A program made the position numbers and the translations under genes. A DNA stretch of 39,220 bases. Source: an uncultured Planctomycetia bacterium (GTDB lineage: Bacteria > Planctomycetota > Phycisphaerae > Phycisphaerales > SM1A02). Positions 2,347 through 39,080 of the stretch are shown here, piece after piece; the first letter of the stretch is position 1, and every line of letters starts with the position of its first letter. Location of the stretch: positions 1 through 39,220 of the forward strand of contig CALFOZ010000080.1 in NCBI GenBank assembly GCA_937919205.1, written 5' to 3'. Below the pieces are notes generated by a model that saw only the letters and a list, made by a program, of their open reading frames with translations, did no database searches and was not told the DNA's origin.

Positions 2347-2352
2347 TATCTT
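2347..2352 (+). promoter_or_regulatory. -10-like hexamer TATCTT, leaderless-type start of hutH
   Basis: The sequence CGCTATCTTTTGCGCATG places TATCTT six bases before the ATG at 2359, so transcription would begin at or next to the A of ATG. No convincing -35 hexamer is visible at 16-18 bases. The same block, with one substitution, precedes the MFS gene at 3922. Confidence 0.6.
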
Positions 2353-2358
2353 TTGCGC

Positions 2359-3867
2359 ATGCCACACACGCAACCCATCCAACTCAACGGCGAGCCGCTC
2401 ACCATACGCATGGTTCACCAAGTGGCGCGCCTTGGCCGCGTCGCACAGATTGGCGCAACTGGCCGCGCGAATCTTTTGCGCGCGCGCGAAGCCGTGAATA
2501 AAGTCGCCGCCGGCAACACCGCCGTGTACGGAATTAACACGGGCTTTGGTTCGCTGGCTCACGTGCGCGTGCCCACGGATCAACTGCGCCAACTGCAACA
2601 CAATATTGTTCGCTCGCACGCGGCTGGCGTGGGCAAGCCGCTTCCAACCGATGTTGTACGCGGCATGCTGTTTATTCTTGCGGCAAGTTTGTGCCGCGGC
2701 CACAGCGGCGTGCGCGTGGAAGTGGTCGAGCGCATTCTGCACATGCTGGCGCACGACATCACGCCGGTTGTTCCAGAAATTGGCAGTGTTGGCGCCAGCG
2801 GTGATTTGGCGCCGCTTGCGCACGCCATGCTTTCACTACTTGGCGAAGGCGATGTGATTGTTGCGGGCAAAACAATCAGCGCCAACGCCGCGTTGAAAGC
2901 CGCCAACTTGCAACCGCTTCAACTTGAAGCCAAGGAAGGACTCGCGCTTCTCAACGGCACGCACCTTATGGCCTCGCGCGCCGCGCTTGCATTTGAGGAG
3001 ATCGACACACTGCGTGGCGCCACCATCAACGCCGCCGCCATGAGCATGGACGCGTGCCTGGCCAGCCACTCTCCGCTTGATGAGCGCATTCATATTGCGC
3101 GCAATCAGCCTGGGCAAATTACTGTGGCCGCCGCCTTGCGCGGACTTCTTGCGGGCTCCAATATTCCAGCCTCGCACAAGGACAATGATCCGCGCGTGCA
3201 AGATCCATACGGCCTTCGCTGTGCGGCGCAAGTGATTGGCGCGGCGTTTGATCAACTGGACAGTGCGCGGCTTGTTGTGGAGCGCGAGCTTGGCGCCGTG
3301 ACCGACAATCCGCTTGTTTTTGTTGATGATTCCGGAGCTTTCGAAATTGTGAGCGGCGGAAATTTTCACGGCATGCCACTGGCGCTTGCAATGGATCAAG
3401 CCAAGATCGCGCTTTGCCACATTGCGGGCATTAGTGAGCGCAGAACATTCTGGGTGCTGTCTGGACACGACACAGTGAATCGCGTACAGCCGCACCTTGC
3501 AACAAGTCCCGGTCTTGAAAGTGGCCTGATGATTACGCAGTACACCGCCGCCGCGTGTTGCAACGAGTTGCAAAGTTTGGCGCACCCTGCGAGTGTTGGA
3601 AATGTTTCCACCTGCGGCGGTATAGAGGATTACAACTCGTTTGGCCCCACCAGCGCAACGCAACTTGCGCGCTCGGTGGAATTATGCCGCAGTGTGATCG
3701 CCATTGAGTTGTATGTGATGACGCAAGCGCTTGAGGCACAGCGGCCGCTTCGCTCGGGCGCTGGCGTTGAAGCCATGCACGCGTTGGTGCGCTCGCACGT
3801 GAAGCCGTTGTCTGGCGATCGCAGTCCCGCGCCAGATCTTGCGGCGATTATTAAGTTGATCGATTGA
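2359..3867 (+). CDS. hutH: Histidine ammonia-lyase
   Basis: HutH deaminates L-histidine to trans-urocanate and ammonia in the cytosol, the first step of histidine degradation. The 502-residue protein is the usual family length. It shows YGINTGFG (residues 57-64, catalytic Tyr region) and VGASGDLAPLAHA with A146-S147-G148, the triad that cyclises into the MIO electrophile. NHAL-type features NGTHLM, TDNPLVF and SGGNFHG follow. The track ORF starts at 2227, adding 44 residues that do not resemble HutH. I chose ATG 2359 because MPHTQPIQLNGEPLT matches the family start and a TATCTT hexamer sits six bases before it. It is followed by a transporter and hutU in the same direction. Phenylalanine/tyrosine lyase relatives share the MIO fold, but the adjacent hutU supports histidine. 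Confidence 0.95.
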   Translation: MPHTQPIQLNGEPLTIRMVHQVARLGRVAQIGATGRANLLRAREAVNKVAAGNTAVYGINTGFGSLAHVRVPTDQLRQLQHNIVRSHAAGVGKPLPTDVVRGMLFILAASLCRGHSGVRVEVVERILHMLAHDITPVVPEIGSVGASGDLAPLAHAMLSLLGEGDVIVAGKTISANAALKAANLQPLQLEAKEGLALLNGTHLMASRAALAFEEIDTLRGATINAAAMSMDACLASHSPLDERIHIARNQPGQITVAAALRGLLAGSNIPASHKDNDPRVQDPYGLRCAAQVIGAAFDQLDSARLVVERELGAVTDNPLVFVDDSGAFEIVSGGNFHGMPLALAMDQAKIALCHIAGISERRTFWVLSGHDTVNRVQPHLATSPGLESGLMITQYTAAACCNELQSLAHPASVGNVSTCGGIEDYNSFGPTSATQLARSVELCRSVIAIELYVMTQALEAQRPLRSGAGVEAMHALVRSHVKPLSGDRSPAPDLAAIIKLID

Positions 3868-3909
3868 TGCGGCGCGAACAATATCTCGAACAAGGTTGGT
3901 GAATGCCGC

Positions 3910-3915
3910 TATCTT
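3910..3915 (+). promoter_or_regulatory. -10-like hexamer TATCTT, leaderless-type start of the MFS transporter
   Basis: CGCTATCTTTGGCGCATG differs at one position from the block upstream of hutH. TATCTT ends six bases before the ATG at 3922. The near identity suggests that the two genes are read by the same holoenzyme in the same way. Confidence 0.6.
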
Positions 3916-3921
3916 TGGCGC

Positions 3922-5295
3922 ATGAATGGCGTTGGCGTGAATAGCGAAATGAGAGGCATAAACCGCGCAAACACAACTGGCAACCCCTCCGCCAACTCAA
4001 CAAAAAAGATCTGGACCGTCATTGGCGCCTCCAGCGCGGGCACGCTGATTGAGTGGTACGACTTTTATATTTTTGGAAGCCTGGCCACCATCATCGCCAA
4101 AAATTTCTTTCCGCAGACCGACCCCACCGCCGCGCTGTTGTTCACGCTGGCCACATTTGCTACCGGATTTGTGGTGCGACCTTTTGGCGCGATCGTGTTT
4201 GGCCGCATCGGTGATTTGGTGGGTCGCAAACATGCATTCTTAGTCACGCTGTTAATCATGGGCTTCAGCACCACGCTGATTGGCGCGCTTCCAACCTATG
4301 ACCAAGTTGGAGTAGTGGCACCTATTTTGCTTTTAGCACTGCGGCTTTTGCAAGGTCTTGCTCTTGGCGGCGAATATGGCGGCGCGGCGACCTATGTGGC
4401 CGAGCACGCGCCAACTCATCGACGCGGTTTCTACACATCATTTATTCAGACCACTGCAACGCTTGGATTGTTTGCGTCGCTAGGAGTGATTCTGTTGTGC
4501 CGTTTGCAATTAGGCGACTCCACTTTCACGGCATGGGGTTGGCGCATTCCATTTCTATTGTCGCTGGCGTTGGTGGCGTTCTCTTATTTCGTGCGCAGAA
4601 AATTGCACGAGTCACCGGTGTTTGTGGAATTAAAAAACTCTGGAAAGGCTTCAAAACAACCGCTTCGAGATAGTTTTTGCAACCGCGAAAACCTAAAGTT
4701 GGTGTTGATCGCGCTATTCGCGGCCACCATGGGCCAAGGTGTGGTCTGGTACACGGGCCAGTTCTACGCGCTGTACTACATGCAGACCGTTCTGAAAATT
4801 GATTTTGTGCTGGCCAACAAAATCATGGCCGTGGCACTGCTTATGGCCACTCCATTCTTTGTGGTGTTCGGCGCGCTCAGCGACCGCGTTGGTCGCAAGC
4901 CACTCATGATGCTTGGATGTTTTCTAGCGCTGATTTTTTGGATTCCAATTTATAAAGCCATGACTGTGGCCGCCACGCAAGAGGGCGGACCAGATGCGAC
5001 AACATTAACGCTATTGATATTTGCGCAAGTGTTTTTTGTAACGCTGGTGTATGGACCCATCGCCGCGTTCTTGGTTGAAATGTTTCCCACGCGCATCCGC
5101 TACACATCTATGTCACTGCCCTATCACATTGGCAATGGCGTGTTCGGTGGATTGGTGCCGCTCATTGGAACGTGGGCGGTGGCAACTTTCAACAACACAC
5201 TCGCGGGCTTGTATTACCCAATGGCCATCACCGCTATCACCTTGGTGTTGGGATTGTTCCTACTGCGTGACCGACACCGCGAAGCGTTGAGTTAA
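3922..5295 (+). CDS. MFS transporter, metabolite:H+ symporter (MHS) type
   Basis: The 457-residue protein has the twelve-helix length of the Major Facilitator Superfamily. Its opening SSAGTLIEWYDFYIFG, the loop 2-3 motif GRIGDLVGRKHA, LALGGEYGGAATYVAEHAP and the second-half loop GALSDRVGRKP are typical of the MHS branch (ProP, KgtP, ShiA relatives). These proton symporters sit in the inner membrane and import organic acids, betaines or amino acids. The gene lies between hutH and hutU and has a promoter block almost identical to that of hutH. I infer uptake of histidine, urocanate or another hut-pathway compound, but the substrate is not shown by sequence. The first 30 residues are polar and variable. 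Confidence 0.88.
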   Translation: MNGVGVNSEMRGINRANTTGNPSANSTKKIWTVIGASSAGTLIEWYDFYIFGSLATIIAKNFFPQTDPTAALLFTLATFATGFVVRPFGAIVFGRIGDLVGRKHAFLVTLLIMGFSTTLIGALPTYDQVGVVAPILLLALRLLQGLALGGEYGGAATYVAEHAPTHRRGFYTSFIQTTATLGLFASLGVILLCRLQLGDSTFTAWGWRIPFLLSLALVAFSYFVRRKLHESPVFVELKNSGKASKQPLRDSFCNRENLKLVLIALFAATMGQGVVWYTGQFYALYYMQTVLKIDFVLANKIMAVALLMATPFFVVFGALSDRVGRKPLMMLGCFLALIFWIPIYKAMTVAATQEGGPDATTLTLLIFAQVFFVTLVYGPIAAFLVEMFPTRIRYTSMSLPYHIGNGVFGGLVPLIGTWAVATFNNTLAGLYYPMAITAITLVLGLFLLRDRHREALS

Positions 5296-5302
5296 CCTGT
5301 TG

Positions 5303-5322
5303 GGCGAAATGGGGTTTTCGCC
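5303..5322 (+). terminator. Small hairpin after the MFS gene, possible terminator
   Basis: GGCGAAA and TTTCGCC form a 7-bp stem with a 6-base loop, seven bases after the MFS stop. No T-run follows directly (ACAATTT), so it is weak as an intrinsic terminator. It may stabilise the mRNA end. Confidence 0.4.
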
Positions 5323-5384
5323 ACAATTTACGGCAAATGTGACAAATTTGAATACGCAAGAAGAAATCAACCACTCCCCTGCGC

Positions 5385-5390
5385 TAAAGT
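5385..5390 (+). promoter_or_regulatory. -10-like hexamer TAAAGT, leaderless-type start of hutU
   Basis: CGCTAAAGTGCTCGCATG gives CGC, then TAAAGT, then six bases to the ATG at 5397. There is no Shine-Dalgarno sequence upstream. Confidence 0.55.
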
Positions 5391-5396
5391 GCTCGC

Positions 5397-7070
5397 ATGT
5401 CCATGCTGAACAAAGTCGACGCCCCCACCCGCACCATTCGCGCGCCGCGCGGCAATCAACGCGTGTGTAAAAGTTGGGCGGCCGAAGCCGCCATGCGCAT
5501 GTTGATGAACAACCTTGACGCCGAAGTTGCGGAGCGTCCGCAAGATTTGGTTGTGTACGGCGGCCGCGGTCAGGCCGCGCGCAATTGGGAGTGCTATGAC
5601 GCCATCATCGCCTCGCTGAAATCACTGGATGTTGATGAAACGTTGCTGGTGCAAAGCGGCAAGCCTGTTGGAATTGTTCGCACGCAAGTGAACGCGCCGC
5701 GGGTGTTGATTGCAAATTCAAACTTGGTGCCGCACTGGGCCACGCAAGAACATTTTGACGATCTCGCTGGCCGCGGCTTGATGATGTATGGACAAATGAC
5801 CGCGGGCAGTTGGATTTACATTGGCACGCAAGGCATCTTGCAAGGCACGTATGAAACATACGCCGAGTGCGCGCGCCAACATTTTGGCGGCACATTACAA
5901 GGCACGCTGAATGTCACCGCGGGTTGCGGCGGCATGGGCGGCGCGCAACCGCTCGCTATTACCATGAATGAAGGCACCTGCCTGCTTGCGGATATCTGCA
6001 TGGAAAGGCTTGAAAAACGCAAGCATGACCGCTACTTGGACGAGATCTTCACGGACTTGGACAAAGCGATCGACCGCGCCATTGAATTGAAAAAAACAAA
6101 GCAAGCCATAAGCGTTGGCGTGCTTGCCAACGCGGTTGATTTGCTGGCGCGCCTGCACACGCGCAAAATTATTCCAGAGACGCTGACCGATCAGACCAGC
6201 GCGCACGATCCGCTTGAAGGCTATTACCCGCAAGGCATGTCGCGCGTTGAGGCGGACGAACTTCGCAAGAGCGATCCTGTTGAGTATCAGCGCCGCAGTT
6301 GCGCCAGCATGAAAGAGCATGTGCGCTTGATGGTTGGGTTTCAAAATGCCGGCAGTAAAGTTTTTGATTACGGCAATAACATTCGCCAGCGCGCCCTTGA
6401 TGCCGGCTTGACCAACGCGTTCGCATTTCCTGGCTTTGTTCCCGCGTACATTCGTCCGCAATTCTGCACGGGCCGCGGTCCATTCCGTTGGGTGGCGCTC
6501 TCTGGCGATCCCGCCGACATTCGCGCCACCGATGAAGCCGTGTTAAAATTATTTCCGCATGACAAATCGCTGGCGCGTTGGATTCACATGGCGCAAGAGC
6601 GCGTGGCGTTCCAAGGTTTGCCCGCGCGCATTTGTTGGCTGGGTCTGGGCGAGCGCGCCAAGGCCGGGCTTCGCTTTAACGAAATGGTGGCCAATGGGGA
6701 GGTAAAAGCCCCAATTGTGATTGGCCGCGACCATCTTGATTGCGGCAGTGTTGCCAGTCCAAATCGCGAGACAGAAGCCATGCTTGATGGCACCGACGCC
6801 GTGAGCGATTGGCCACTGCTGAACTTTGCGGTGAACATTGCAAGCGGCGCTAGTTGGACAAGTTTCCATCACGGCGGCGGAGTGGGAATTGGTTTCAGCC
6901 AGCACGCGGGCCAAGTTGTTGTTGCCGATGGCACGCCGTTGGCCGCGCAACAACTCGAGCGCGTGCTCACCAACGATCCAATGATGGGCGTGTTCCGCCA
7001 CGCGGACGCGGGCTATGAACTTGCCAAGGAATGCGCCGTGAAACTTGGCGTGCAAATTCCAATGCAGTGA
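5397..7070 (+). CDS. hutU: Urocanate hydratase (urocanase)
   Basis: HutU converts urocanate to 4-imidazolone-5-propionate with a tightly bound NAD+ acting as electrophile, the second step of histidine degradation. The 557-residue length and start region ([16 protein letters not shown]) match the family. [14 protein letters not shown] at about residue 175-187 is the NAD+-binding glycine-rich segment. [35 protein letters not shown] near the C terminus is a strongly conserved urocanase block. The start ATG 5397 is supported by the six-base spacing from TAAAGT. No hutI or hutG lies in the window, so the last steps are encoded elsewhere. The gene converges on the Sua5 gene with only 12 bases between stops. 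Confidence 0.97.
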
Positions 7071-8054: not shown

Positions 8055-9849
8055 TTTTTGCGGACCCATCATTGTCGGGATCAAACACATTCAACTCAAT
8101 GCGATTCATTTGCAAACCCGTTCCCATGTTCATCCACAGCGACGCGATGGCGTTGTTGTACTCAACCATGGAAAGGATTTCCTGATTTTGGGCGCCGGCC
8201 AATTCGTTCTGCCGCTGAAATTTCAAACTGAGAAACTCCGGCGTCAAACTTGGAATGGTTTGCTCATCCACCATGAGCGCGCGCATATTTTCTGCTTGCG
8301 CCAAACGAAACGCGCGCGTCTGCTCAATCAATCGATATTGCGTGTCAATGTTGCGCAGAGAATCTTTGACCAAGTACACCACCTGCTGAATCGCGGCGCG
8401 GTAGGTGATGACGGCCTTGGAACGCTCCAGCCGCGACCGACGGTAATTGGCTTCTGGAGCGCGGTTTCCGATAGGTTGACTGAAATTGGCGCCCACCAAA
8501 TAGCTCATGAAATTAGCCGCGCCAACCTCGCTCCATGCCTGGCTGTAGTCGCCGTTCTGCGTGTCCATGCCTTGAAATTGCAACTGCGCCGTCAAGTTCA
8601 GCGAGGGCAAGCGGCCGTTGTCGGCAACCACTTGGCGAATGCTTGCGTCATCAACGCCAAGCAACGCCTGCGTGATGATTGGACTTTGATCAACGCCCGT
8701 GCCAATGGCGTCCTTCAATGAAAATGCAAGCGGCTCATCCACCATGAAATCCGTCGGGACAATCATGGTCTCGTCGCCAACTGGAAAATTGGAATCGTTC
8801 AGCAGTACTTTTAATTTGTCCACAGCCGCGGTCACTTCGCGTTGCGCGCGAATCACTTGGCTCTTGCGGTCCTCCACCTTGGCCACGGCGTCGGCGTAGT
8901 TGGCAAGCGTGGCGTCAAAACTGCGCCGCTTGAAAAGCACGTCGCGCACTTCGGTGCCAACTTTCACAAGCCACTGCGCCACCACCACGCGCTGGCGCGC
9001 AAGCACAACTTGCCAATAGGCGGCCTCCACATCGCGGCACACCATGAGCAAGTTGGCGCGCAACTGTTGCAAACTGCGCCGATCATTGTTGCGCGCAATA
9101 CGAATGCCCGCCATGTTCACATCGCTTCCAAAACCCTGCAAAAGTGGCTGAGTTAGACCAAGTTGCACGCTGTTGATCCACGCTGGATTAGGCGTGTAGC
9201 CGCTGTCTGGATAGAGCTTGGTGTATTGATTTACGACAGTGGCGCTGAACTGTCCGCCTGTTTCCATGGGCGTTTGAATGCCGCTGGAAAAATTGAACTG
9301 ACGAAATTGATTCATGAAGTCAACGGGAATGGGGACAGTGCTTTGACCCAGATTGATGTCCTGCGCCGGCGCGTTAGAAATATTCGCCTGCGTGCTGGCC
9401 ACAAACGAAGAATCAAATGCGGCTTGCGCCGCCACCAACTCCGCTTGCGTAACGCCTTGTTGCAAACGTGCAACTTGCGTTCCAAGATTGTGCTCCACTG
9501 AAATTCGAATGGCGTCTTTTAAAGATAAATTCACTTCGGGATACGGCTTGCCATACAAGTCACTGCCAAGCGGCATGCCTGCTCCAGCCTCTGAGATTTG
9601 TGGTCCCAAAGAATCAAGTTGCACGCGGCGTTTCTGCAACGCGTTGAACACCTGATTCACTTCGCGCGTGACGGGCTTCACTGGATCTTGCGTTGGCGCC
9701 TGCGCCAATTCACGCGCCACGGCGGTATCCATGGCGTGGCGCAAACCCTCGGTTCCATCGGGATCGTCCATGGGCGAATTGCAAGAACACACGCAAACCG
9801 CCGCAAGAAGGGCAAATACGAGCGCCTGATATGGCCGACGGAGAATCAT
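8032..9849 (-). CDS. TolC-like outer-membrane efflux lipoprotein
   Basis: The 605-residue protein begins with a lipoprotein signal peptide, MILRRPYQALVFALLAAVCVCSC|N, with the lipidated Cys at residue 23. The mature part is an OEP-type channel protein of the TolC/CusC class. Repeated alpha-helical segments such as LARQRVVVAQWLVKVGTEVRDVLF and VAKVEDRKSQVIRAQREVTAAVDKLKVLL are interrupted by beta-rich stretches. It would trimerise as the outer-membrane duct of an efflux or type I secretion system. No inner-membrane pump or adaptor gene lies beside it, so its partner is unknown. The protein is longer than standard TolC (about 470-500 residues), mainly through the N-terminal region of about 100 residues. 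It is divergent from the SH3-domain gene across 45 bases. Confidence 0.87.
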   Translation of the reverse strand: MILRRPYQALVFALLAAVCVCSCNSPMDDPDGTEGLRHAMDTAVARELAQAPTQDPVKPVTREVNQVFNALQKRRVQLDSLGPQISEAGAGMPLGSDLYGKPYPEVNLSLKDAIRISVEHNLGTQVARLQQGVTQAELVAAQAAFDSSFVASTQANISNAPAQDINLGQSTVPIPVDFMNQFRQFNFSSGIQTPMETGGQFSATVVNQYTKLYPDSGYTPNPAWINSVQLGLTQPLLQGFGSDVNMAGIRIARNNDRRSLQQLRANLLMVCRDVEAAYWQVVLARQRVVVAQWLVKVGTEVRDVLFKRRSFDATLANYADAVAKVEDRKSQVIRAQREVTAAVDKLKVLLNDSNFPVGDETMIVPTDFMVDEPLAFSLKDAIGTGVDQSPIITQALLGVDDASIRQVVADNGRLPSLNLTAQLQFQGMDTQNGDYSQAWSEVGAANFMSYLVGANFSQPIGNRAPEANYRRSRLERSKAVITYRAAIQQVVYLVKDSLRNIDTQYRLIEQTRAFRLAQAENMRALMVDEQTIPSLTPEFLSLKFQRQNELAGAQNQEILSMVEYNNAIASLWMNMGTGLQMNRIELNVFDPDNDGSAKNATTIAK

Positions 9850-9858
9850 GAAGTGTGC

Positions 9859-9864
9859 ACTGTA
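9859..9864 (-). promoter_or_regulatory. -10-like hexamer TACAGT of the TolC-like gene
   Basis: On the minus strand TGTATACAGT is followed by nine bases and the ATG at 9849. It shares the 45-base divergent spacer with the promoter of the SH3-domain gene. Confidence 0.45.
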
Positions 9865-9881
9865 TACAAACCAAAAATGCG

Positions 9882-9887
9882 TAGAAT
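9882..9887 (+). promoter_or_regulatory. -10-like hexamer TAGAAT, leaderless-type start of the SH3-domain gene
   Basis: GCGTAGAAT is followed by seven bases and the ATG at 9895. It is one of the best -10 matches in the window. The predicted transcript begins at or one base from the start codon. Confidence 0.6.
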
Positions 9888-9894
9888 CGATTTC

Positions 9895-11289
9895 ATGAAA
9901 TTGGCTCTACTACTGATCGTTCTCGTTCTTCCCGTTTTCAGCGTTCACGCATTGGCGCAAGCGCCTGCCGCGGCGCCAAGCAAGGCGTACACCGGCACCG
10001 TGACCGCGGACAATGTGTACATCCGCTGTGGACCAAGCGCGTCAAGCGCGTACCCATTTGGCAAGTTGGCCTTGGGCGACATTCTTGAGGTGATCGATGA
10101 GGGATTTGGCTGGGCCACAGTTCGCACCAATGGTCCGGCATTTCGAAACATATATGGATACGTTTTGGCCAATGACAAGGTAGTGCTTTCACCAGACGGT
10201 CAAACTTTAACGGTGAACGCCGAGACCGATGTGCGCGCTCCAAATATTGGCGCCGATGGAAATGCAGACGCGTCTTTTAAGGCGATCGGCAAGGTGCCGG
10301 TTGGAAGTATGTTGCAAGTTGTCGCCACCATGAATGGCGAACGCGAAAAAGTTTACAAAATTGCGGTGCCCGCCAATTGCGTGGGCTATGTCAATTTAAA
10401 TTTTGTCCGACGCTCCAGCGCCGGCGAGGCCGCGAAGATGGCGCAGGCTGTGACCGCCCCCGCGACCAAGGCGCCAAACGCCAGCGGCGCGAATTCAAAG
10501 ACAATCGCCGTGATCGAGGAGAAGACAACGCAAGCCAGCGAGATTATTCCCGCTACTGACACCACTGCCGAAAAAATCATCACCGAGCAAACCAAGCAAG
10601 AGACCGTTGTTACGGAGACCGTGGTTGGCAGTGGCTCCGTTGATTTGCCAAAAGCGGCTGTAAAAGTCGAGGAAATTGTGATTGTTGCGCCTCAACCCGT
10701 GGTCAAGACCCCACAGATGATCGCCTCCGAAAAGCGCCGCCAGACGTTTAAGGATCTAGAGGTAATTTGGATCACCGTGAAAACGGAGCCCTTGGCTTCA
10801 AGCGAAGTTGGCGTGCTGAAGGATCGCTACATGATTCTGATGAACGATTCAGAATGTGAAGCTGATATTAAAAATGTTGTCGAGACCCGAGTGAAGCAGT
10901 TGATTGTTCAAATTGAAGCGCAACAACGCATTCGACAGTTGAAAGAAATGCGCGGCATGCTTGACGCTGACACTGAACAAGTTCGAGTTCTGAAGTTCGC
11001 GCTTGAGGCGCGCTCCGACTACACAGTTGTGGGCATCCTCAACGCCAGTAGCATCTACGATGGCAAGCGACTGCCGTTGCTGTATCGCTTGGTGGATCCA
11101 GCGGTAGGTCAGACCGTGGCGTATGTCAGCACAAAAAATCCCGCCCAACTTGCCATCATGCTTGGAACGTTGGTTGGAATTCGTGGAGAGAAACGTTATG
11201 ACGAGGCGTTGCGCGTGAGCGTGATTGAGCCAACCGCGATCGAAATTCTGACCACGCGCAAGCGCGATGCCGCGATCAACAAGCAATAA
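9895..11289 (+). CDS. Secreted protein with bacterial SH3-like domains
   Basis: The true start is most likely ATG 9895, giving 464 residues. The track ORF (from 9598) extends through the divergent promoter and the tolC gene. The N terminus is a clear signal peptide, MKLALLLIVLVLPVFSVHALA|Q. Residues of about 30-90 (TGTVTADNVYIRCGPSASSAYPFGKLALGD) form a bacterial SH3 domain, and a second SH3-like unit spans about 100-165 (TLTVNAETDVRAPN...IGKVPVGSML). A Thr/Lys/Val-rich linker follows. The last 150 or so residues have a heptad-like helix (RVKQLIVQIEAQQRIRQLKEM) and an alpha/beta domain without a family I can name. SH3_3 domains often bind peptidoglycan or act as spacers. A periplasmic role is likely; the exact function is not known. 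Confidence 0.8.
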   Translation: MKLALLLIVLVLPVFSVHALAQAPAAAPSKAYTGTVTADNVYIRCGPSASSAYPFGKLALGDILEVIDEGFGWATVRTNGPAFRNIYGYVLANDKVVLSPDGQTLTVNAETDVRAPNIGADGNADASFKAIGKVPVGSMLQVVATMNGEREKVYKIAVPANCVGYVNLNFVRRSSAGEAAKMAQAVTAPATKAPNASGANSKTIAVIEEKTTQASEIIPATDTTAEKIITEQTKQETVVTETVVGSGSVDLPKAAVKVEEIVIVAPQPVVKTPQMIASEKRRQTFKDLEVIWITVKTEPLASSEVGVLKDRYMILMNDSECEADIKNVVETRVKQLIVQIEAQQRIRQLKEMRGMLDADTEQVRVLKFALEARSDYTVVGILNASSIYDGKRLPLLYRLVDPAVGQTVAYVSTKNPAQLAIMLGTLVGIRGEKRYDEALRVSVIEPTAIEILTTRKRDAAINKQ

Positions 11290-12191: not shown

Positions 12192-12197
12192 AGTGTA
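12192..12197 (-). promoter_or_regulatory. -10-like hexamer TACACT, leaderless-type start of rsmE
   Basis: On the minus strand CACTACACTTCGCGCGTG places TACACT six bases before the GTG start codon at 12185. This lies in the 21-base gap between the rsmJ-like stop and the rsmE start, so rsmE may have its own promoter. Confidence 0.55.
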
Positions 12198-12977: not shown

Positions 12978-12983
12978 TACACT
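12978..12983 (+). promoter_or_regulatory. -10-like hexamer TACACT, leaderless-type start of the cystathionine beta-synthase gene
   Basis: CGTTACACTTGAAATATG puts TACACT six bases before the ATG at 12990. No Shine-Dalgarno sequence is present. Confidence 0.6.
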
Positions 12984-14408: not shown

Positions 14409-15122
14409 ATGGATATTCCTGGCATTTTGACCATCTTTGTTTCGCTGATCGCGCTGATTGATCCGCTGGGCACGGTGGGAATTTTCTTGGCGATCACATG
14501 CAACGATTCAACCGCCGTGCGCAAACGCACCGCGTTGCTTGGCTGCGTGTACGCATTTTGCATCTTGATTTTGTTCCTAGGATTTGGCGGCTCAATTCTT
14601 TCGTTCTTTGGAATAACCGTGTCGGCGGTGCAAGTGGGCGGCGGTTTAATTTTGGCCAAGATTGGACTGGATTTGATTGACGTAAAAATGGAGTCCAAAT
14701 CAAGTCCCGCGGAGGAACGCGACGCCGTAGTGCGTGAAAGTTCAGCGTTCTTTCCACTGGCCATGCCGCTACTGGCTGGACCCGGAGCCATGACCGTGGC
14801 CATTGCGGAAAGCAGTCACTTTCGCGGTGGTCACTGGAGTGATTTACTATCCGCCACTATCGCCGTTGCCTTGGCGTGCTTTGTCACTTGGATTGTGCTT
14901 GATAAAGCAATCTTGATTCAAAAAGTGCTGGGCAAGTCCGGCACCAACGCCATCACGCGAGTCATGGGATTCATTTTGGTGTGTATTGCGGCGCAAATGA
15001 CCATAGTTGGAATTCAAGGCGTGATTGCCAGCGTGGCACAAATACCCCCGTCGTTGCCGCCGAAAGACAGCATTTCTACAGCCGTTAGCATTCTGCCATG
15101 GCTCACCCACATCTGCATTTAG
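14409..15122 (+). CDS. MarC-family (UPF0056) integral membrane protein
   Basis: The 237-residue inner-membrane protein has about six hydrophobic segments. The MarC family signature includes the N-terminal ILTIFVSLIALIDPLGTVGIFL, a mid-protein FFPLAMPLLAGPGAMTVAIA and a C-terminal TRVMGFILVCIAAQMTIVGIQGV. The biochemical role of most MarC proteins is unknown, but the archaeal relative SnatA is reported to transport small neutral amino acids. The gene sits between the cystathionine beta-synthase and gamma-lyase/synthase genes. It starts 12 bases after the first and overlaps the second by 25 bases, so all three are probably one transcript. I infer a link to sulfur or small amino acid traffic. 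No Shine-Dalgarno is seen before the ATG. Confidence 0.88.
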   Translation: MDIPGILTIFVSLIALIDPLGTVGIFLAITCNDSTAVRKRTALLGCVYAFCILILFLGFGGSILSFFGITVSAVQVGGGLILAKIGLDLIDVKMESKSSPAEERDAVVRESSAFFPLAMPLLAGPGAMTVAIAESSHFRGGHWSDLLSATIAVALACFVTWIVLDKAILIQKVLGKSGTNAITRVMGFILVCIAAQMTIVGIQGVIASVAQIPPSLPPKDSISTAVSILPWLTHICI

Positions 15123-26585: not shown

Positions 26586-27904
26586 ATAGCGTCACCAAAA
26601 ATAATCCACCCGCCCCCACCCCCGTAGCGCCAACGCATTCCAAAAAACCCAAGCGCGTGTGCGTGGCCTACTCCGGTGGCCTTGATACCAGTTGCGTTAT
26701 TCCGTGGTTGCGCGAAACCTACGACTGCGAAGTGGTGGCGTGCGTGGCGGATGTTGGTCAAGGCGCGCAAGAACTTGTCGGCATTGAAAAGAAAGCCGCC
26801 GACTCCGGCGCCTGCGCATGCGTGATCAAAGATTTGAAGCAATCATTCTTGACGGACTTTGTATTTCCAATGGTCATGTCTGGCGCCGTGTATGAGGGGC
26901 GCTACCTTCTTGGCACCAGCATCGCGCGTCCTTGCATTGCGCAAGCGCAGGTCATGTGCGCGTTGGAAGAACAGTGCGACGCCGTGGCCCACGGTTGCAC
27001 TGGCAAAGGCAATGATCAAGTGCGATTTGAAAGCGTGTATGCGGCGTTGGCGCCGCAATTGCGCGTGATTGCGCCGTGGCGTGAAAGTTCCTGGAATTTG
27101 CGCAGTCGTGAAGCCATGCTTGGCTATTTGGCACAGCGCAATATTCCATGCGCCGCAAGCGCCACAAAAATTTATTCGCGCGACGCCAACTCCTGGCATG
27201 TTTCACATGAAGGCGCGGAACTGGAAGATCCGTGGAACGCGCCACCAGAAGATTTGTGGATTCGCACAACCGATCCAAAGAGCGCGCCCAATGAGCCGGA
27301 AGAAGTGGTTGTTGGATTTGAACATGGATTGCCCGTGAGCGTGAATGGCAAAAAACTTTCAGCGGTCGCACTGCTTGACGCGCTGAATGACATTGGCGCG
27401 CGCCATGGCGTGGGCCGAGTTGACCTGGTTGAGAACCGACTTGTGGGAATGAAGAGCCGCGGTTGCTACGAGACTCCAGGCGGAACTATTCTTATGGAAG
27501 CACTGCGCGGCTTGGAACAAATTGTTCTTGACCGCGACTCCATGCGCTTTCGCGAGGAACTTGCCAATGATTTTGCGCGCGTCATTTATGATGGCCGTTG
27601 GTTCGCGCCGTTGCGTGAGGCGCAGTGGGCGGCCATTCAATCGCTGGCACAACCACTTACTGGCGAAGTGGCTGTGCGCGCCTATAAAGGAAGCGCCACC
27701 ACCACGCGTCGGCGCAGTCCAAATTCGCTGTATTCGCAGGCATTTGCCACCTTTGGCGAGGACGATGTGTACAACCAACAGCACGCCGAAGGCTTCATTC
27801 GTTTGTTTTCTTTGCCCAGCCGCATTCGCGCCATGCTTGGCCTAAATAAAGTGTTTGGTATTCACAATGCGCATACATCTGGCAAAAGTGGAGCAAGTCG
27901 GTGA
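26582..27904 (+). CDS. argG: Argininosuccinate synthase
   Basis: ArgG condenses citrulline and aspartate with ATP. The 440-residue protein shows the PP-loop [15 protein letters not shown] (residues 29-42), [26 protein letters not shown], the aspartate/citrulline segment [12 protein letters not shown], and [12 protein letters not shown]. The first 22 residues ([22 protein letters not shown]) are a Pro-rich extension. The end has [13 protein letters not shown] and a C-terminal oligomerisation helix. GGAG lies six bases before ATG and the start overlaps the argF stop as ATGA. It overlaps argH as GTGA. Confidence 0.97.
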
Positions 27905-29784
27905 CCTCTATTTGGCAAGGACGAGTTCAAGGCCAGCAAGATTCACTCTTTCGAACGTTCAATGATAGTCTTCCATTTGATCGTCGACTGATTCAAGAGG
28001 ACATTGAAGGCTCCATTGCTTGGGCCCTTGCGTTGGCGCGCGCCGAAGTGATCAGCGACGGCGACCGCGCGCGACTTGAAAAAGCCCTGCGTGAAATTGC
28101 GGCGTTGGCGGAGAAGGATCCCACGCTCTTAAGCAAAGCCACTGATGAGGATGTGCACAGTTGGGTGGAGCGCGAATTGGTGGCGCGTATTGGTGATTTG
28201 GGCAAACGTCTTCACACGGGTCGCAGTCGCAACGATCAAGTGGCAACGGATTTGCGTCTGTGGTGCCTGAAGCAAACGCGCGTTCGCCTTGCGGAAATTG
28301 ACGCCGCTAATTTAAGTTTGCTTGAATTGGCCGAGCGTGAGCGCGACACGGTGTTTCCAGGATTCACGCATTTACAGCGGGCACAGCCCATTTTGTTCGC
28401 ACATTGGTGCTTGGCCTACGTTGAAATGTTGCGCCGCGACGCCGACCGTTTCTCCGACGCGCTTGACCGCGTGGCGCGTTGTCCGCTTGGTTCGGGCGCC
28501 CTGTCTGGCACCGCGTATCCAATTGATCGACAGAAGCTGGCCAAGGATTTGGGCTTTGATGGCCCAAGCGCCAACAGTCTTGATGCGGTCAGCGACCGCG
28601 ACTTTGTCGTGGAGCTCATCGCGTCTGCATCCGTGTGCATGCTACATCTCAGCCGCATGGCGGAAGATATTATTTTTTACGCCACGGGCGAAGCCGCGTA
28701 TGTTGAACTTTCCGACGAGGTCAGCACCGGTAGTAGTTTGATGCCGCAGAAAAAAAATCCTGACGCGCTGGAACTGATCCGCGGCAAGACTGGTCGCGTG
28801 ATAGGCGCTCTCACGGGAATTCTTGTCACGCTCAAGGCGCTTCCACTTGCCTACAACAAAGATTTGCAAGAGGACAAGGAGCCGCTCTTTGACGCCATGG
28901 ACACGCTGTCGATATGTCTGCGAATGATTCCGCGCGTGCTACAAGGTCTGAAAGTTGACCGCGCGCGCGCGCGCAAGGCGGCCATTGCCAGTTACGCAAA
29001 TGCCACTGAATTGGCTGATTATCTGGTAAGAAAGGGAGTCGCCTTTCGCGACGCGCACCATCAAGTTGGGCTGTTGGTGCGCGAAGCCATTCGTCAAGGC
29101 AAGCCGCTTGAAGATTTGTCCGTGCAAGAGATGGTCAAACTTGCGCCACTGGTCAGCAGTGATGTGTTTGTCACGTTGACGGTTGATAGCGCGCTGAGTC
29201 GTCGATCTGTTTCGGGTGGCACCGCGCCAGAACAAGTGAACGCACGCGTGAAGGAAGCCAAGCGAAGTTTGCGCGCGACGCGCCGACCCAAGCGCCGTAG
29301 TGCTGGTGGTGCCACTGGATTAAGAGACGCGGTGGTGGAAGACTTGGATGAGATCAAACGCCTGGTGGATTTATGGAGTCAGCGCGGAGAAAATTTGCCG
29401 CGCACGCGCGACGAAATCATGGAGAAGATCACCGACTTCGCCATCGCCGCGGTGGATGGAAACGTGCGCGGTTGTGCCAGCTTGTGGATCTATGAATCCG
29501 ACCTCGCGGAAATTCGCTCGCTTGGAGTGGACGAAGGCTTTCAAGGCCGCGGCCTAGGAAAGCAACTTGTGCAATATTTTATTGAGAAGGCGCGCAGTAT
29601 TGGCATTGAGCGTTTGTTTGTGCTCACGCGCATGCCGGCATTCTTTGAGAAGTGTGGATTTCGCACGGTCAGTATCAATAGTTTGCCGCAGAAAGTCACT
29701 AAAGATTGCGCACAGTGCCCCAAGAATCAAAACTGCGACGAGATTGCCATGGTGCTTGACTTAAAGGAGAGCGAAACGTCTTGA
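27901..29784 (+). CDS. argH: Argininosuccinate lyase fused to a C-terminal GNAT (N-acetylglutamate synthase-like) domain
   Basis: The first 460 or so residues are argininosuccinate lyase, which splits argininosuccinate into arginine and fumarate. This part holds [48 protein letters not shown] and the signature [20 protein letters not shown] (about 278-297). A basic linker [16 protein letters not shown] leads to a GNAT domain (about 475-627). The acetyl-CoA loop is [14 protein letters not shown], and the domain also has [14 protein letters not shown] and a C-terminal cysteine set, [10 protein letters not shown]. That arrangement is typical of short ArgA-type acetylglutamate synthases and of ArgH(A) fusions known from some marine gammaproteobacteria. 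I infer lyase plus acetyl-CoA:glutamate acetyltransferase in one polypeptide. The start is GTG with GGAG seven bases upstream. Confidence 0.93.
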
Positions 29785-34556: not shown

Positions 34557-34562
34557 GCGCAA

Positions 34563-34568
34563 AGTTTA
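34563..34568 (-). promoter_or_regulatory. -10-like hexamer TAAACT, leaderless-type start of pheS
   Basis: On the minus strand CGCTAAACTTTGCGCGTG mirrors the hutH block CGCTATCTTTTGCGCATG, including the TTGCGC spacer. TAA of the hexamer is also the stop codon of the upstream regulator gene. Confidence 0.5.
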
Positions 34569-35243
34569 GCGATTTTGTTGCCCTTGAGCCTGCACCAAAA
34601 TCTTGGCCGCCGCCAATTGCGATAGCGTGATTGGCTTGCCGCGCCCCGCGCGCACGGTCACGGAATTCGCCTGCGCGCTAACGCTTTGCACCAGCAAACT
34701 TGCTCCAGGCTTCAAATCACTTTCGGCGACAAACTTTAAGAACGCTCGGTTCTGATCCATGATGCGCACAATGCACACGCGGTCACGCGCGCGGCATTTG
34801 GCCAGCGGCTTGCTACGCGTCTCGGAGACATTTCCAGCCGCATCAGGAATTGGGTCGCCATGCGGATCGGTCAAGGGCCGGCCAAGAAATTCATCAAGGC
34901 GATCCAAAATGCGCGCGGACAAGGCGTGCTCAAGACGCTCGGCCTCCTCATGCACATCGGCCCAATCTAGTTTCAACGTGCGCACTAAAAATGTTTCAAT
35001 CACGCGGTGGCGGCGCAGGACATCCAGCGCAATCTTATTGCCCTTGGCGGTCAGCACAATGCCGCTATAGGGTTCGGCTTTCACCAAGCGCGCCAAAGAA
35101 AGCCGCTTCATCATGCTGGTGGCGGTGCCTTTGGTCACGCCCACCTCCTGCGCCAAACGCACCACGCCCGCTTCACCACTGGGTGATTCTCGGCACAAGG
35201 CATAGAGCGCCTTGATGTAATTTTCTACGGTTTCCGTGGCCAT
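34566..35243 (-). CDS. DtxR/MntR-family metal-dependent regulator
   Basis: The 225-residue protein has the DtxR family architecture. An N-terminal winged helix (about 1-65) reads ATETVENYIKALYALCRES...LAQEVGVTKGTATSMMKRLS. A dimerisation and metal-binding domain follows (about 66-145), with VLRRHRVIETFLVRTLKLDWADVHEEAERLEHALS, including the E..xxE..H ligand pattern. A C-terminal FeoA/SH3-like domain (about 150-220) has VAESDLKPGASLLVQSVSAQ. Such proteins repress metal uptake when Mn2+ or Fe2+ is bound. The gene is divergent from an Nramp transporter across 160 bases that hold a perfect palindrome, which makes MntR-like control of Mn2+ uptake the best reading. IdeR/DtxR-like iron control is the alternative. 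Confidence 0.9.
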   Translation of the reverse strand: MATETVENYIKALYALCRESPSGEAGVVRLAQEVGVTKGTATSMMKRLSLARLVKAEPYSGIVLTAKGNKIALDVLRRHRVIETFLVRTLKLDWADVHEEAERLEHALSARILDRLDEFLGRPLTDPHGDPIPDAAGNVSETRSKPLAKCRARDRVCIVRIMDQNRAFLKFVAESDLKPGASLLVQSVSAQANSVTVRAGRGKPITLSQLAAAKILVQAQGQQNR

Positions 35244-35252
35244 TGCGCCTGC

Positions 35253-35258
35253 ATGGTA
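35253..35258 (-). promoter_or_regulatory. -10-like hexamer TACCAT of the DtxR-family gene
   Basis: On the minus strand CGCTACCAT is followed by nine bases and the ATG at 35243. This matches the layout of the PfkB kinase gene. Confidence 0.45.
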
Positions 35259-35306
35259 GCGAACGAGGCGCTTTCAACAAAATGTTTTAGCGCATGTCCA
35301 TTAAAT

Positions 35307-35322
35307 GTTTGATGAATCAAAC
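35307..35322. promoter_or_regulatory. Perfect palindrome GTTTGAT-GA-ATCAAAC, candidate operator of the DtxR/MntR-like regulator
   Basis: The two 7-base arms match perfectly. The site lies in the divergent regulator-mntH spacer. It overlaps the position of a -35 element (TTGATG, 35309-35314) that is 16 bases from TAGACT at 35331-35336, so a bound repressor would block that promoter. Confidence 0.55.
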
Positions 35323-35330
35323 TTATTTGG

Positions 35331-35336
35331 TAGACT
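35331..35336 (+). promoter_or_regulatory. -10-like hexamer TAGACT of the Nramp gene
   Basis: TAGACT is 16 bases downstream of TTGATG inside the palindrome. It predicts a leader of about 60 bases. A second hexamer, TATTTT (35393-35398), lies five bases before the ATG and could give a leaderless transcript. Confidence 0.45.
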
Positions 35337-35403
35337 TATTCCCAAAGCATTGGCGCTTGAGTTGGCCGCGCCACACGCATTTCACGCGAATGTATTTTGA
35401 TTC

Positions 35404-36741
35404 ATGAGCACACCCCAGAACACAAACTCCGCTTGGCGCAAAAATACAAACGCGCATTCCTTGCCAGAGGCGTACGCCACCGTGCCCGTGCCCATGCATG
35501 GATCGCGTTGGCGCAAACTGATGGCGTTCAGCGGTCCAGGACTCATGGTGGCCGTGGGCTATATGGACCCTGGCAACTGGGCCACGGACTTGGCGGGTGG
35601 CGCGCAATTTGGTTACACCCTGCTGAGCGTCGTTCTGATCTCCAACATCATGGCCATCTTGCTACAGCACTTGGCGGTGAAACTTGGCGTGGTGGCTGAG
35701 CGGGATTTAGCGCAGGCCTGCCGCGATCACTTCAGCGCGCCCGTTTCATTTTGCTTGTGGGTGCTGTGCGAAATCGCGATCGCCGCGTGCGACCTTGCGG
35801 AAGTCATCGGCTCCGCCATCGCGCTCAACTTGCTCTTTGGAATTCCGCTGGTGTGGGGCGTGTGCATCACGGCCACCGATGTGTTGATGATTCTCTTTTT
35901 ACAAACCAAAGGCTGGCGCTATCTGGAGGCGCTTGTCGCCGGACTTGTCTTTCTGATTGGCGCTTGTTTTGCCTATGAAATCATCGCTTCGCGCCCCGAA
36001 CTTCCAGCGCTGTTGCGTGGACTTGTGCCCACGCCAGAAATCGTGGTGAACCCAGCCATGCTTTATATTTCAATCGGCATTCTGGGAGCCACGGTCATGC
36101 CGCACAATTTATATTTGCACTCCGCCATTGTGCAAACGCGCGACTATCCGCGCGACGACGCTGGCAAGTCCATGGCTATTCGTTACGCCACGGCTGATTC
36201 CACCATCGCCCTGCTATTCGCGTTCTTCATCAACGCCGCCATTCTTGTTCTGGCCGCATCCGCGTTTCACACGTCAGGCCATCAAGATGTCGCTGGAATT
36301 GAGGACGCTTACAAATTGCTCACCCCCGTGTTGGGTGCGACGTTGGCAAGCACCGTGTTCGCCATCGCCCTGCTGGCCTCGGGACAAAATTCCACGCTCA
36401 CTGGAACACTCGCGGGGCAAGTGGTCATGGAAGGATTCCTGAATATCCGACTCACTCCGTGGTTGCGCCGCTTGATCACGCGGCTGATCGCCATTATTCC
36501 CGCGGTGATTGTGGCCGCCATGTACGGCGCCACAGGCGTGAACAAATTATTGATCTTAAGCCAAGTTATTTTGTCACTGCAACTTTCATTCGCGGTGGTG
36601 CCACTGGTGTGGTTCACAAGCAGTAAGTTAAAAATGGGCCGCTTCGCCAACTCCGCCACGCTTGCAACCACGGCGTGGATTGTGACGGCGATCATTGTCA
36701 CGCTGAACGCCTATTTACTTGTGCAGATCTTTCAAGGATGA
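35404..36741 (+). CDS. mntH: Nramp-family Mn2+/divalent metal transporter
   Basis: The 445-residue inner-membrane protein has about eleven membrane helices and both metal-site motifs of the Nramp family. These are MDPGNWATDLAGG in helix 1 (Asp and Asn ligands) and VMPHNLYLHSAIVQTR in helix 6 (Met and His). GQNSTLTGTLAGQVVMEGFL is the other hallmark loop. Such proteins import Mn2+, and sometimes Fe2+, with protons. The N terminus (about 1-35) is polar and variable. Divergence from a DtxR/MntR-type regulator gene, with a palindrome over the promoter, supports metal-controlled expression. Confidence 0.95.
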   Translation: MSTPQNTNSAWRKNTNAHSLPEAYATVPVPMHGSRWRKLMAFSGPGLMVAVGYMDPGNWATDLAGGAQFGYTLLSVVLISNIMAILLQHLAVKLGVVAERDLAQACRDHFSAPVSFCLWVLCEIAIAACDLAEVIGSAIALNLLFGIPLVWGVCITATDVLMILFLQTKGWRYLEALVAGLVFLIGACFAYEIIASRPELPALLRGLVPTPEIVVNPAMLYISIGILGATVMPHNLYLHSAIVQTRDYPRDDAGKSMAIRYATADSTIALLFAFFINAAILVLAASAFHTSGHQDVAGIEDAYKLLTPVLGATLASTVFAIALLASGQNSTLTGTLAGQVVMEGFLNIRLTPWLRRLITRLIAIIPAVIVAAMYGATGVNKLLILSQVILSLQLSFAVVPLVWFTSSKLKMGRFANSATLATTAWIVTAIIVTLNAYLLVQIFQG

Positions 36742-36776
36742 ACGCGTCCATGCTGGCCCAGATCCAGATCCAGATC

Positions 36777-36802
36777 TTGCAAGTGCCAGTGTTGGCATGC
36801 AA
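36777..36802 (+). terminator. Hairpin after mntH
   Basis: TTGCA-AG-TGCCA pairs with TGGCA-TGCAA around GTGT, giving ten pairs with a two-base bulge. Three CCAGAT copies lie just upstream. No T-run follows. It is located in the 115-base gap between convergent mntH and the exonuclease gene. Confidence 0.4.
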
Positions 36803-36856
36803 CAATCGCGCGTAATTGCAACCAATGAATCTTCCACTTGCCAACCCAGCGCATAT

Positions 36857-37429
36857 TTATTGCATCACTTCACGCTTGCGCAATTCCAAGTAGCACCTCA
36901 CGCAGGCGCGCACATCCACCAACGCGTCGTGGTCGCCTTCAAATGAATCGCCAAACAATTTCATATGCAACTCCTGCAACTTGGGCCATTTGTAGCCATA
37001 GTTGCCGGCGAAAGCGCAGAAGTCCGTTGAACCCTGCATGGTGCAGGCGCGCGGTTTCTGCAACACAACATTGGGCCGCCCCGCCCGCAAAAACTCCGCG
37101 CCCAGAATATTTTCGTCAAAGGACATGTTGTGCGCGAACAACATGTCCGCGTCCAAAATGTCCGAGGCAATCTCATCGAGCGCCTTGTGCAACTGAACAC
37201 CATCGCGCATGGCCATCTCCGTGGTAATGCCATGAATGCGCGACACCACCTCTGGAATCATAAATCCATCCGGGCGAATAATGTGGTTGGTCGCTTTCAA
37301 CTCCTGCCCCTGTTGGTCCGTGACAACCCATCCCAACTGCACCACGCGCGGCCAGTTCAACAAGTCCGATGGCGGCGCCTTGTAATTTTTGGGAACGCCA
37401 GTTGTCTCTGTGTCAAAAAATAAATACAT
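36857..37429 (-). CDS. DEDDh-type 3'-5' exonuclease (DNA polymerase III epsilon-like)
   Basis: The 190-residue protein carries the five acidic/His residues of the DEDDh (DnaQ) fold. They are Asp and Glu in LFFDTETTG (residues 6 and 8), Asp in LFAHNMSFDENILG, and His/Asp in GDHDALVDVRACVRCYL. The track start (37480) adds 17 residues. I chose ATG 37429 because AAAGGAG lies six bases upstream and the fold starts there. The enzyme would remove 3' nucleotides from DNA or RNA. It is a stand-alone domain, and I see no BRCT or polymerase part, so proofreading or repair are both possible. The gene starts 10 bases after the APC permease stop and is probably co-transcribed with it. Confidence 0.88.
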   Translation of the reverse strand: MYLFFDTETTGVPKNYKAPPSDLLNWPRVVQLGWVVTDQQGQELKATNHIIRPDGFMIPEVVSRIHGITTEMAMRDGVQLHKALDEIASDILDADMLFAHNMSFDENILGAEFLRAGRPNVVLQKPRACTMQGSTDFCAFAGNYGYKWPKLQELHMKLFGDSFEGDHDALVDVRACVRCYLELRKREVMQ

Positions 37430-37439
37430 GCTTGCTCCT

Positions 37440-39068
37440 TTAATGCCTAAACGCCGCGCCCGCGTCGCTGTCCGCGCCAACTTCCGCGCGCAAATGCTCC
37501 AATTCCACGCGCACTTGATCCGCGGGTTGCGCGCAATGCGTGGCCATCCAAAAGAGCGGCACCGACAGGACCGCGATAATCACTGTGTCCATCGAATTTT
37601 TCAGATCACCCGTGCCGCCAAAGTCCTCGCTACCAAACCATCCAACTCCAATCACCACCAGCGCGGTTGGAACAAGCCATGCAAGCGGCTTCCACGCGTT
37701 GACCACCTGCGGCTTGCCGCGCAACTTTGGAAGCGCGTAAGCACAAAACACAATCACGCACAGCGCCACGATCACTGGAATGTACGACTTCACTCCGCTC
37801 CAATACACAATCAACAAGTTGGATGCGAACGCCACGAACGCCATGAACATTCCGCCTGGCATTTGAAATGGACGCCGCGACCTTGGCTCAATGCGACGCA
37901 ACACCACCACGCTCACTGGAACGGAAATCACATTCAAGAAATACGCCGCGGCGTTTAGGTTGGCAAGCTCCGTCCACTTTGGATACGCGAACACCACCAC
38001 CGAACTTACAAACCATGAGAACACCAAGGCCAACACGGGCACGCCCTGCTTGTTCAACTGCAATAAAATATTCCACGCAAATCTCTGCTGTGCGGCCGCG
38101 TACACCACGCGCCCGGTGCTACCCACATACGCCAAGCAACTTCCGCCCGGCGAAATGACCGCGTCAAAATATAAAATCTTCACCATCAGCGGCAAACCCG
38201 CCACCATGAGAATGGCCAAAAACGGCGCGTTTGCCTGCGGAATTACAATGTTTTTCCAGCCATTCGCGTACTCGGCCGTGTCAAGCGCGCCCAGAAAAGC
38301 CAACTGCACAATCAAGTACAGAACCAGCGCGAACAGCGTGGACATAAAAAACGCAAACGGAATATCTTTCGCTGGATTTTTCGCCTCGCCCGCCAAGTCT
38401 CCAATGATTCGAAAACCACACAGCGTGAACACAATGCCGCCCATGGACAGCGCGGCAAAAATACTTTGCACGCCGCCCGGCATGAATCCCTCGCCATTGG
38501 ATGTGAGATTGGCGCTGTCAAACTTGGTGAACATCAACACCAACCCAACGCTCGCGGGAATGGCGATCTTCCACCATGTGATCACGCTGTTCATGCGTAT
38601 CAACCAGCGCACGCCAAAGAAATTTAGCACCGTGAAAAATGCGATCAGCAACACCGTGACCACTTGCCCCGTGTGGCTTAAGTTGGCTTCTTTGCCAACA
38701 GTCAACTGCGGAAAATACATGGCGCTGTACGTGACAATGCTTGTGGCTTCAATGGACGGAGTGGTGACATATGCAAAAAACAACAGCCACATATTGATAA
38801 GCGACATGCCGCGCCCATGCGTGGCCGATGAAACTTGCGCGCTTGAACCCGAGACTGGAAATGCGCACGCCAGTTCCGCCAAGCAATATCCCATGATCAA
38901 CATCAAGCCCGCGCCCACCACCCACGCCAACAACGCGGCGGGACCCGCTTGCTTCACCGCCTCCATGGGCGCGTACAACCAGCCCGACCCCACAACGCCT
39001 GAAATTCCCAGCGCCACAAGTCCCCAGCGACTGACATCACGTCGCAGTTGCGTGCTTGGTGTGTGCAT
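37440..39068 (-). CDS. APC-superfamily amino acid permease
   Basis: The 542-residue protein has about twelve membrane helices. It opens VSRWGLVALGISGVVGSGWLYAPMEAVKQAGPAALLAW, the conserved helix 1 region of amino acid-polyamine-organocation carriers with the unwound GVVGSGW backbone site. Other family blocks are ELACAFPVSGSSAQVSS, FRIIGDLAGEAKNPAKDIPFAF (helix 6 region) and AAAQQRFAWNILLQLNKQGVPVLALVFSW. The C-terminal tail (VRVELEHLRAEVGADSDAGAAFRH) is cytosolic. The substrate cannot be told from sequence; an amino acid is likely. The start ATG 39068 is supported by TACCAT six bases upstream. The exonuclease gene follows. Confidence 0.92.
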   Translation of the reverse strand: MHTPSTQLRRDVSRWGLVALGISGVVGSGWLYAPMEAVKQAGPAALLAWVVGAGLMLIMGYCLAELACAFPVSGSSAQVSSATHGRGMSLINMWLLFFAYVTTPSIEATSIVTYSAMYFPQLTVGKEANLSHTGQVVTVLLIAFFTVLNFFGVRWLIRMNSVITWWKIAIPASVGLVLMFTKFDSANLTSNGEGFMPGGVQSIFAALSMGGIVFTLCGFRIIGDLAGEAKNPAKDIPFAFFMSTLFALVLYLIVQLAFLGALDTAEYANGWKNIVIPQANAPFLAILMVAGLPLMVKILYFDAVISPGGSCLAYVGSTGRVVYAAAQQRFAWNILLQLNKQGVPVLALVFSWFVSSVVVFAYPKWTELANLNAAAYFLNVISVPVSVVVLRRIEPRSRRPFQMPGGMFMAFVAFASNLLIVYWSGVKSYIPVIVALCVIVFCAYALPKLRGKPQVVNAWKPLAWLVPTALVVIGVGWFGSEDFGGTGDLKNSMDTVIIAVLSVPLFWMATHCAQPADQVRVELEHLRAEVGADSDAGAAFRH

Positions 39069-39074
39069 GAATCA

Positions 39075-39080
39075 ATGGTA
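39075..39080 (-). promoter_or_regulatory. -10-like hexamer TACCAT, leaderless-type start of the APC permease
   Basis: On the minus strand CGTTACCATTGATTCATG places TACCAT exactly six bases before the ATG at 39068. It lies just past the stop codon of the partial gene to the right. Confidence 0.55.

Follow-up and report, generated by a model that had tools for sequence, protein, structure and literature searches.

A TANNNT box six bases before start codons in a Phycisphaerales genome, read as a candidate leaderless promoter

Mycobacteria reportedly make leaderless ATG/GTG transcripts alongside Shine-Dalgarno (SD)-led ones, the transcripts having been mapped by RNA-seq and ribosome profiling. 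The extended -10 promoter of sigma-70 has the form TGnTATAAT. A class of leaderless (TA-led) bacterial genes has been recognised by a TANNNT motif some 12 bp ahead of the start codon; such genes make up about 20% in Actinobacteria, and Planctomycetes are missing from the groups for which that study lists leaderless genes (Zheng et al. 2011; PMC3160421). For Deinococcus-Thermus, another paper (PMC12340547) describes an ORF-adjacent -10 motif, TANNNT with TACACT the commonest form, which lies 6-7 bp before about 30% of ORFs, coexists with an RBS motif and was studied in reporter experiments. The one planctomycete examined by Nakagawa (2017; PMC5397173) had a leaderless-and/or-S1 bias, and for Phycisphaerae an SD in 46% of genes and the anti-SD CCUCCUUU have been reported (PMC10783764). 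No description of leaderless promoters in Phycisphaera or Planctomycetes was found in the freely searchable literature.

A first-pass annotation of the DNA studied here likened a recurrent start module to the leaderless promoters of Deinococcus and actinobacteria. The comparison was correct, yet TANNNT about 12 bp upstream was already published as a bacteria-wide class. Like TA-led genes (PMC3160421), the genes described below have TANNNT about 12 bp upstream with weak middle bases, and they coexist with SD-led genes; the share of box genes, about 17%, is close to that in Actinobacteria, and the difference is in the taxa, which now extend to Phycisphaerales and parts of Planctomycetota. Four features of TA-led genes, namely TANNNT at -12, absence of an SD, operon-proximal enrichment and conservation among orthologs at a fixed distance, were found; a fifth, a transcription start at the start codon, is predicted. 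Compared with the Deinococcus-Thermus motif (PMC12340547), our figure is an excess over background obtained from sequence alone, and a CG preference precedes the hexamer. The mechanism is already known; the lineage and the patchy distribution within Planctomycetota appear to be new to the searchable literature.

Coexistence with SD-led genes is also common to the mycobacterial transcripts, for which the counterpart here is sequence evidence only. With the extended -10 promoter the boxes share an enriched G two bases before the hexamer and the lack of a detected -35; they differ in having C instead of T before that G, and in having the G at under half of the sites.

Boxes and gene starts in the window

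The source MAG comprises 2.49 Mb in 241 contigs and is 95.6% complete. The window, the whole stretch of DNA analysed, is the entire contig C80 (39,220 bases). Its hutU has its closest counterparts in MAGs of Phycisphaerales and other planctomycetes (83%, 83% and 78% identity), which places the organism among the Phycisphaerales; from the nearest relatives, mostly lake MAGs, our guess is that the MAG is of freshwater origin. The hut cluster, the arg cluster, pheS, thrS and infC are unremarkable.

Table 1. Boxes upstream of gene starts in the window, with one SD site
Gene	Element	Sequence	Coordinates	Strand	Spacer	Bases in front	Start	Model posterior
hutH	box	TATCTT	2347..2352	+	6	CGC	ATG 2359	
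MFS transporter	box	TATCTT	3910..3915	+	6	CGC	ATG 3922	0.99
hutU	box	TAAAGT	5385..5390	+	6	CGC	ATG 5397	
rsmE-like	box	TACACT	12192..12197	-	6	no G two bases before	GTG 12185	0.99
Cystathionine beta-synthase-like	box	TACACT	12978..12983	+	6	CGT	ATG 12990	0.98
Cys/Met-metabolism PLP enzyme	box	TAGCAT	15086..15091	+	6	CGT	ATG 15098	0.98
S1/P1-nuclease	box, one base off	TAGAAA	31256..31261	+	6	CGG	ATG 31268	
pheS	box	TAAACT	34563..34568	-	6	CGC	GTG 34556	0.99
APC permease	box	TACCAT	39075..39080	-	6	CGT	ATG 39068	1.00
SH3-like secreted protein	box	TAGAAT	9882..9887	+	7		ATG 9895	0.64
TolC-like outer-membrane lipoprotein	box	TACAGT	9859..9864	-	9		ATG 9849	
PfkB-family kinase	box	TACACT	1206..1211	-	9	CGC	ATG 1196	0.98
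DtxR-family regulator	box	TACCAT	35253..35258	-	9	CGC	ATG 35243	0.98
Exonuclease	SD	AAAGGAG	37436..37442	-			ATG 37429	SD 0.97

The boxes of the window are collected in Table 1. The first-pass annotation had claimed TANNNT, or a hexamer one base off, exactly six bases before eight starts. The match is exact for hutH, the MFS gene, hutU, rsmE, the cystathionine beta-synthase-like gene, pheS and the APC permease, and the nuclease hexamer is one base off, as claimed; the spacers given for the SH3 gene (7) and for the PfkB, TolC and DtxR genes (9) were also read correctly. A box absent from that list, CGTTAGCATTCTGCC-ATG in front of the PLP-enzyme start, lies within the 3' end of marC, so that the window holds eight exact spacer-6 TANNNT boxes plus the one-off nuclease box. 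The nuclease site is ambiguous, the model giving 0.38 for a -10 box and 0.54 for an SD. Among the 33 called genes of the window seven have TANNNT at -12, where 0.33 was expected and the maximum across 500 resamplings was 3; the hutH box is not in this count because the gene caller took a longer hutH ORF.

The longest hutH ORF begins 132 bases ahead of what is likely the true start (window 2227-2358). The NCBIfam hutH match begins at residue 51 of the longer ORF, six codons past ATG 2359, which fits ATG 2359 as the start. Misannotated starts, of which hutH would be an example, are expected where leaderless starts are ignored.

The TolC-like and SH3 genes are divergent and lie 45 bp apart (window 9849-9895). 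Read from ATG 9849, the TolC-like protein has a lipoprotein-signal-like N-terminus; the SH3-like protein has a weak SH3_3 match and a signal-peptide-like N-terminus. Their -10-like hexamers are exactly 17 bp apart, so each sits at the expected -35 position of the other promoter, and the two promoters are probably mutually exclusive.

Position and sequence of the box across the genome

Genes were called in 857 kb of the MAG, taken in stretches, with a caller that picks starts by coding potential alone, without an upstream model. The genome-wide enrichment that the first-pass annotation had predicted was found as a sharp TANNNT peak at -12 to -7. TANNNT stood at -12 of 36 of 364 first genes, against a background of 3.63 per offset (P ~1e-23; 857 kb). 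The corresponding counts were 8/69 for genes lying 21-60 bases behind a co-directional neighbour and 6/128 for genes closer than that. Before in-frame internal ATG/GTG codons TANNNT was found at -12 in 27 of 13,309 cases (0.2%).

Because -12 shares the reading frame of the start, and because TAA or TAG accounts for 22 of the 56 TANNNT sites at -12, the peak could in principle be an artefact of gene calling or composition, e.g., of in-frame stops upstream of starts. Against this, TANNNV is flat (16 at -12, 10-21 at neighbouring offsets), i.e., the peak needs the final T, and TA[CT]NNT, which is never a stop, likewise peaks at -12 (34 vs 0-12). Upstream in-frame stops are therefore not the cause. 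Further, internal ATGs lack the box, the T at -7 is retained among orthologs, and the low-GC planctomycete genome G145, passed through the same gene-calling code, had no -12 peak. In Pedobacter, Neobacillus, Bradyrhizobium, Anaerolineaceae and Paenibacillus genomes the spacer-6 excess was absent or negligible. These controls ruled out the artefact reading, whose probability we put close to nil. Searched over the whole genome, CGNTANNNT-N6-ATG occurred 61 times, compared with 3 occurrences at spacer 3 and 17 at spacer 12, control spacers that share the reading phase of spacer 6. They replaced a reversed-pattern control, whose counts were dropped because a codon bias particular to the reversed pattern makes them unreliable.

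Expectation maximization (EM) from uniform starting positions converged on CGNTANNNTT, placed at -12 in 51%, at -13 in 15% and at -15 in 11%. When seeded with the reversed motif, EM gave a diffuse fit to noise in which no one position was dominant. The raw EM fraction (33%) was rejected as overfitted, and the excess over shifted sequence was used instead: the same model made about 54 false calls on shifted upstream sequence, compared with 161 real ones. The calibrated excess is about 107 of 636 genes (~17%), or 75 of 375 first genes (20%) and about 5 of 133 close internal genes (4%); the raw enrichment of the box in first genes has a Fisher P of 0.015. Spacer 6 accounts for 98 of the 161 calls. 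Spacer 7 is clearly over background (27 calls vs 8-14 in shifted controls). The spacer-9 sites of the window are present as first described, but genome-wide this spacer is just weakly above background (18 calls vs 6-14). A bimodal spacing, 6 and 9 but not 8, was striking in raw counts; calibration left spacer 9 barely above background, and the bimodality is not explained by near-cognate starts lying one codon upstream.

A G two bases before the hexamer, noted at first in nine of twelve sites, is indeed present in those nine, but as a rule it does not hold: genome-wide G at -14 is a preference only, found at 24 of 56 sites (43%) and at 37 of 172 (22%) at control offsets. Three bases before the hexamer, C has a frequency of 0.39-0.41 and T of 0.27, so that the TGn of an extended -10 is not reproduced. 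The 43% G and its upstream partner C, in place of the canonical T, count against the promoter reading put forward below. No clear base preference was seen over -36 to -28, where a -35 hexamer would lie, and no conservation was found there. A depletion of TTG starts (1/155 vs 7/203) was not significant.

Shine-Dalgarno sites and conservation among orthologs

Box genes tend to lack an SD. SD4 was found in 7 of 98 box genes and in 126 of 524 others (odds ratio 0.24, P 8e-5), and its share rises from 16% of first genes to 28% of genes 21-60 bases behind a neighbour and 40% of closer genes. The claim that two initiation modes coexist held in that SD sites dominate close internal genes, for which the exonuclease gene, internal and 10 bp behind the APC permease, provides the contrasting mode. 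The box is not limited to operon-first genes, however: pheS and rsmE follow their neighbours at 9 bp and 21 bp, and the gene starting at 15098 overlaps the one in front of it. A pyrimidine at -1 was found in 80% of box genes and 61% of SD genes (P 8e-5), an excess that is expected if the purine of the start codon is the transcription start.

Since the box occupies the ribosome-binding-site position in place of an SD, it might be no promoter but an element acting in translation, namely an AT-containing site for the ribosome (non-SD) or for S1; Nakagawa (2017; PMC5397173) could not tell leaderless from S1 signals, in a single planctomycete. From an S1 site one would expect a diffuse U-rich tract, whereas three fixed bases, a -10 consensus and the extended-10-like G fit a promoter, as do the first-gene enrichment and the -1 pyrimidine excess, and we regard a translation element as improbable.

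Conservation was assessed in 400 kb from relatives and at the hutU and APC loci, the counts being drawn from 95 ortholog pairs that share a start and have diverged upstream DNA. The box at -12 was kept in 15 of 20 pairs, six of them contributed by the APC gene, compared with 2 of 23 for TANNNT at -50 to -19 (Fisher 1e-5). Of 19 genes whose box stands at -12, -13 or -15, 18 have an ortholog box between -12 and -15. Ortholog identity was 65-85% over -12 to -6, mostly 15-50% over -45 to -18, and 25-55% over -5 to -1. In six same-genus orthologs of the APC permease, CGYTACCATT-N5-ATG is the sole recognisable upstream block, the flank having diverged; in the exonuclease gene that follows, AAAGGA/GAAGGA is retained in five orthologs. 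By conservation the box is real and functional, and it is best read as marking leaderless promoters.

The hutU orthologs were read by eye, automated pairs having landed on internal Met codons. Their boxes have spacer 6 in L005, 7 in L004 and 9 in L003. L010 and L013 share this -10 box but have an SD-bearing leader of about 12 bases after it. A -10 near a gene is thus not always leaderless, and hutU apparently switches between leaderless and leadered initiation among relatives.

These variable spacers bear on how strictly leaderless the transcripts would be. Spacers 7-10 could leave leaders of 1-4 bases, and it is possible, if somewhat doubtful, that the same box starts transcription a few bases off the start codon, giving 1-10-base leaders tolerated by the ribosome. 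The occurrence of spacers 7, 9 and 10, the clear excess at spacer 7 and the differing hutU spacers speak for such leaders. Against them stand the predominance of spacer 6 and the fixed length of a spacer whose sequence is unconserved, which suggests selection for this very distance to the start codon. Short leaders would be a refinement of the main explanation, and the two readings overlap.

The leaderless reading of the box is supported by these data, and CGNTANNNT-N6-ATG/GTG is very probably a core promoter that starts transcription on, or a few bases from, the start codon. CGNTANNNT would be the -10 element of the housekeeping sigma factor, often with an extended-10-like G and with no recognisable -35, and RNA polymerase would start on the A or G of the start codon, or at most a few bases away. 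The resulting mRNA, leaderless or nearly so, would be translated without an SD; its 5'-terminal AUG or GUG would presumably be read by 70S ribosomes or else by 30S subunits that already carry initiator tRNA. Roughly one in five first-of-unit genes would use this promoter, as would genes that have an internal promoter, tightly packed internal genes being mostly SD-led. If this is right, Phycisphaerales and related genomes need their gene starts re-annotated with a leaderless model, and in uncultured planctomycetes promoters can be recognised from the sequence. Planctomycetota would join the phyla that use both leaderless and SD initiation, here with differences between close relatives, and the antibiotic response and heterologous expression of such genes would likely be affected.

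Distribution across Planctomycetota and beyond

Three same-genus genomes repeated the -12 peak (15 of 240 genes, P 2e-13). Spacer 6 exceeded spacer 12 (P<0.01) in 15 of 15 same-genus, 17 of 21 same-family and 18 of 24 same-order genomes; among the positive Phycisphaerales MAGs are ACE_PLA17 (54 at spacer 6 vs 10 in the control) and OFTM92 (50 vs 9). In a phylum sample of 118 genomes, the source MAG included, 38 were significant after Bonferroni correction. By family, the spacer-6/spacer-12 ratio reached 12 in f22 and was about 1 at the low end: the signature is strongly marked in families f22, f35, f45, f28, f25 and f19 and in Phycisphaerales, and near absent from f26, f38, f16 and f7, in a test that has little power in AT-rich genomes. 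In much of Planctomycetota, first genes may have leaderless initiation without a -35 as a major default that is toggled clade by clade; the chances of this seem evenly balanced. If so, the phylum would offer a natural series for the gain and loss of leaderless translation.

Outside the phylum, the Holophagaceae MAG L052 had a spacer-6 excess of 31 vs 7, which suggests that this Acidobacteriota lineage carries the same signature.

Two minor observations concern other genes. Cysteine-synthase-like paralogs with one in-frame TGA were seen in the same-genus genomes G002, G005, G007, G011, G013 and G015, and with TAG in G001; the stop may simply be a terminal stop within the match. In the window's arg cluster, which has argR, argC, AA-kinase, OTCase and argJ genes, the argininosuccinate lyase (window 27901-29784) has a GNAT acetyltransferase domain fused at its C-terminus, a fusion of the argH-argA type.
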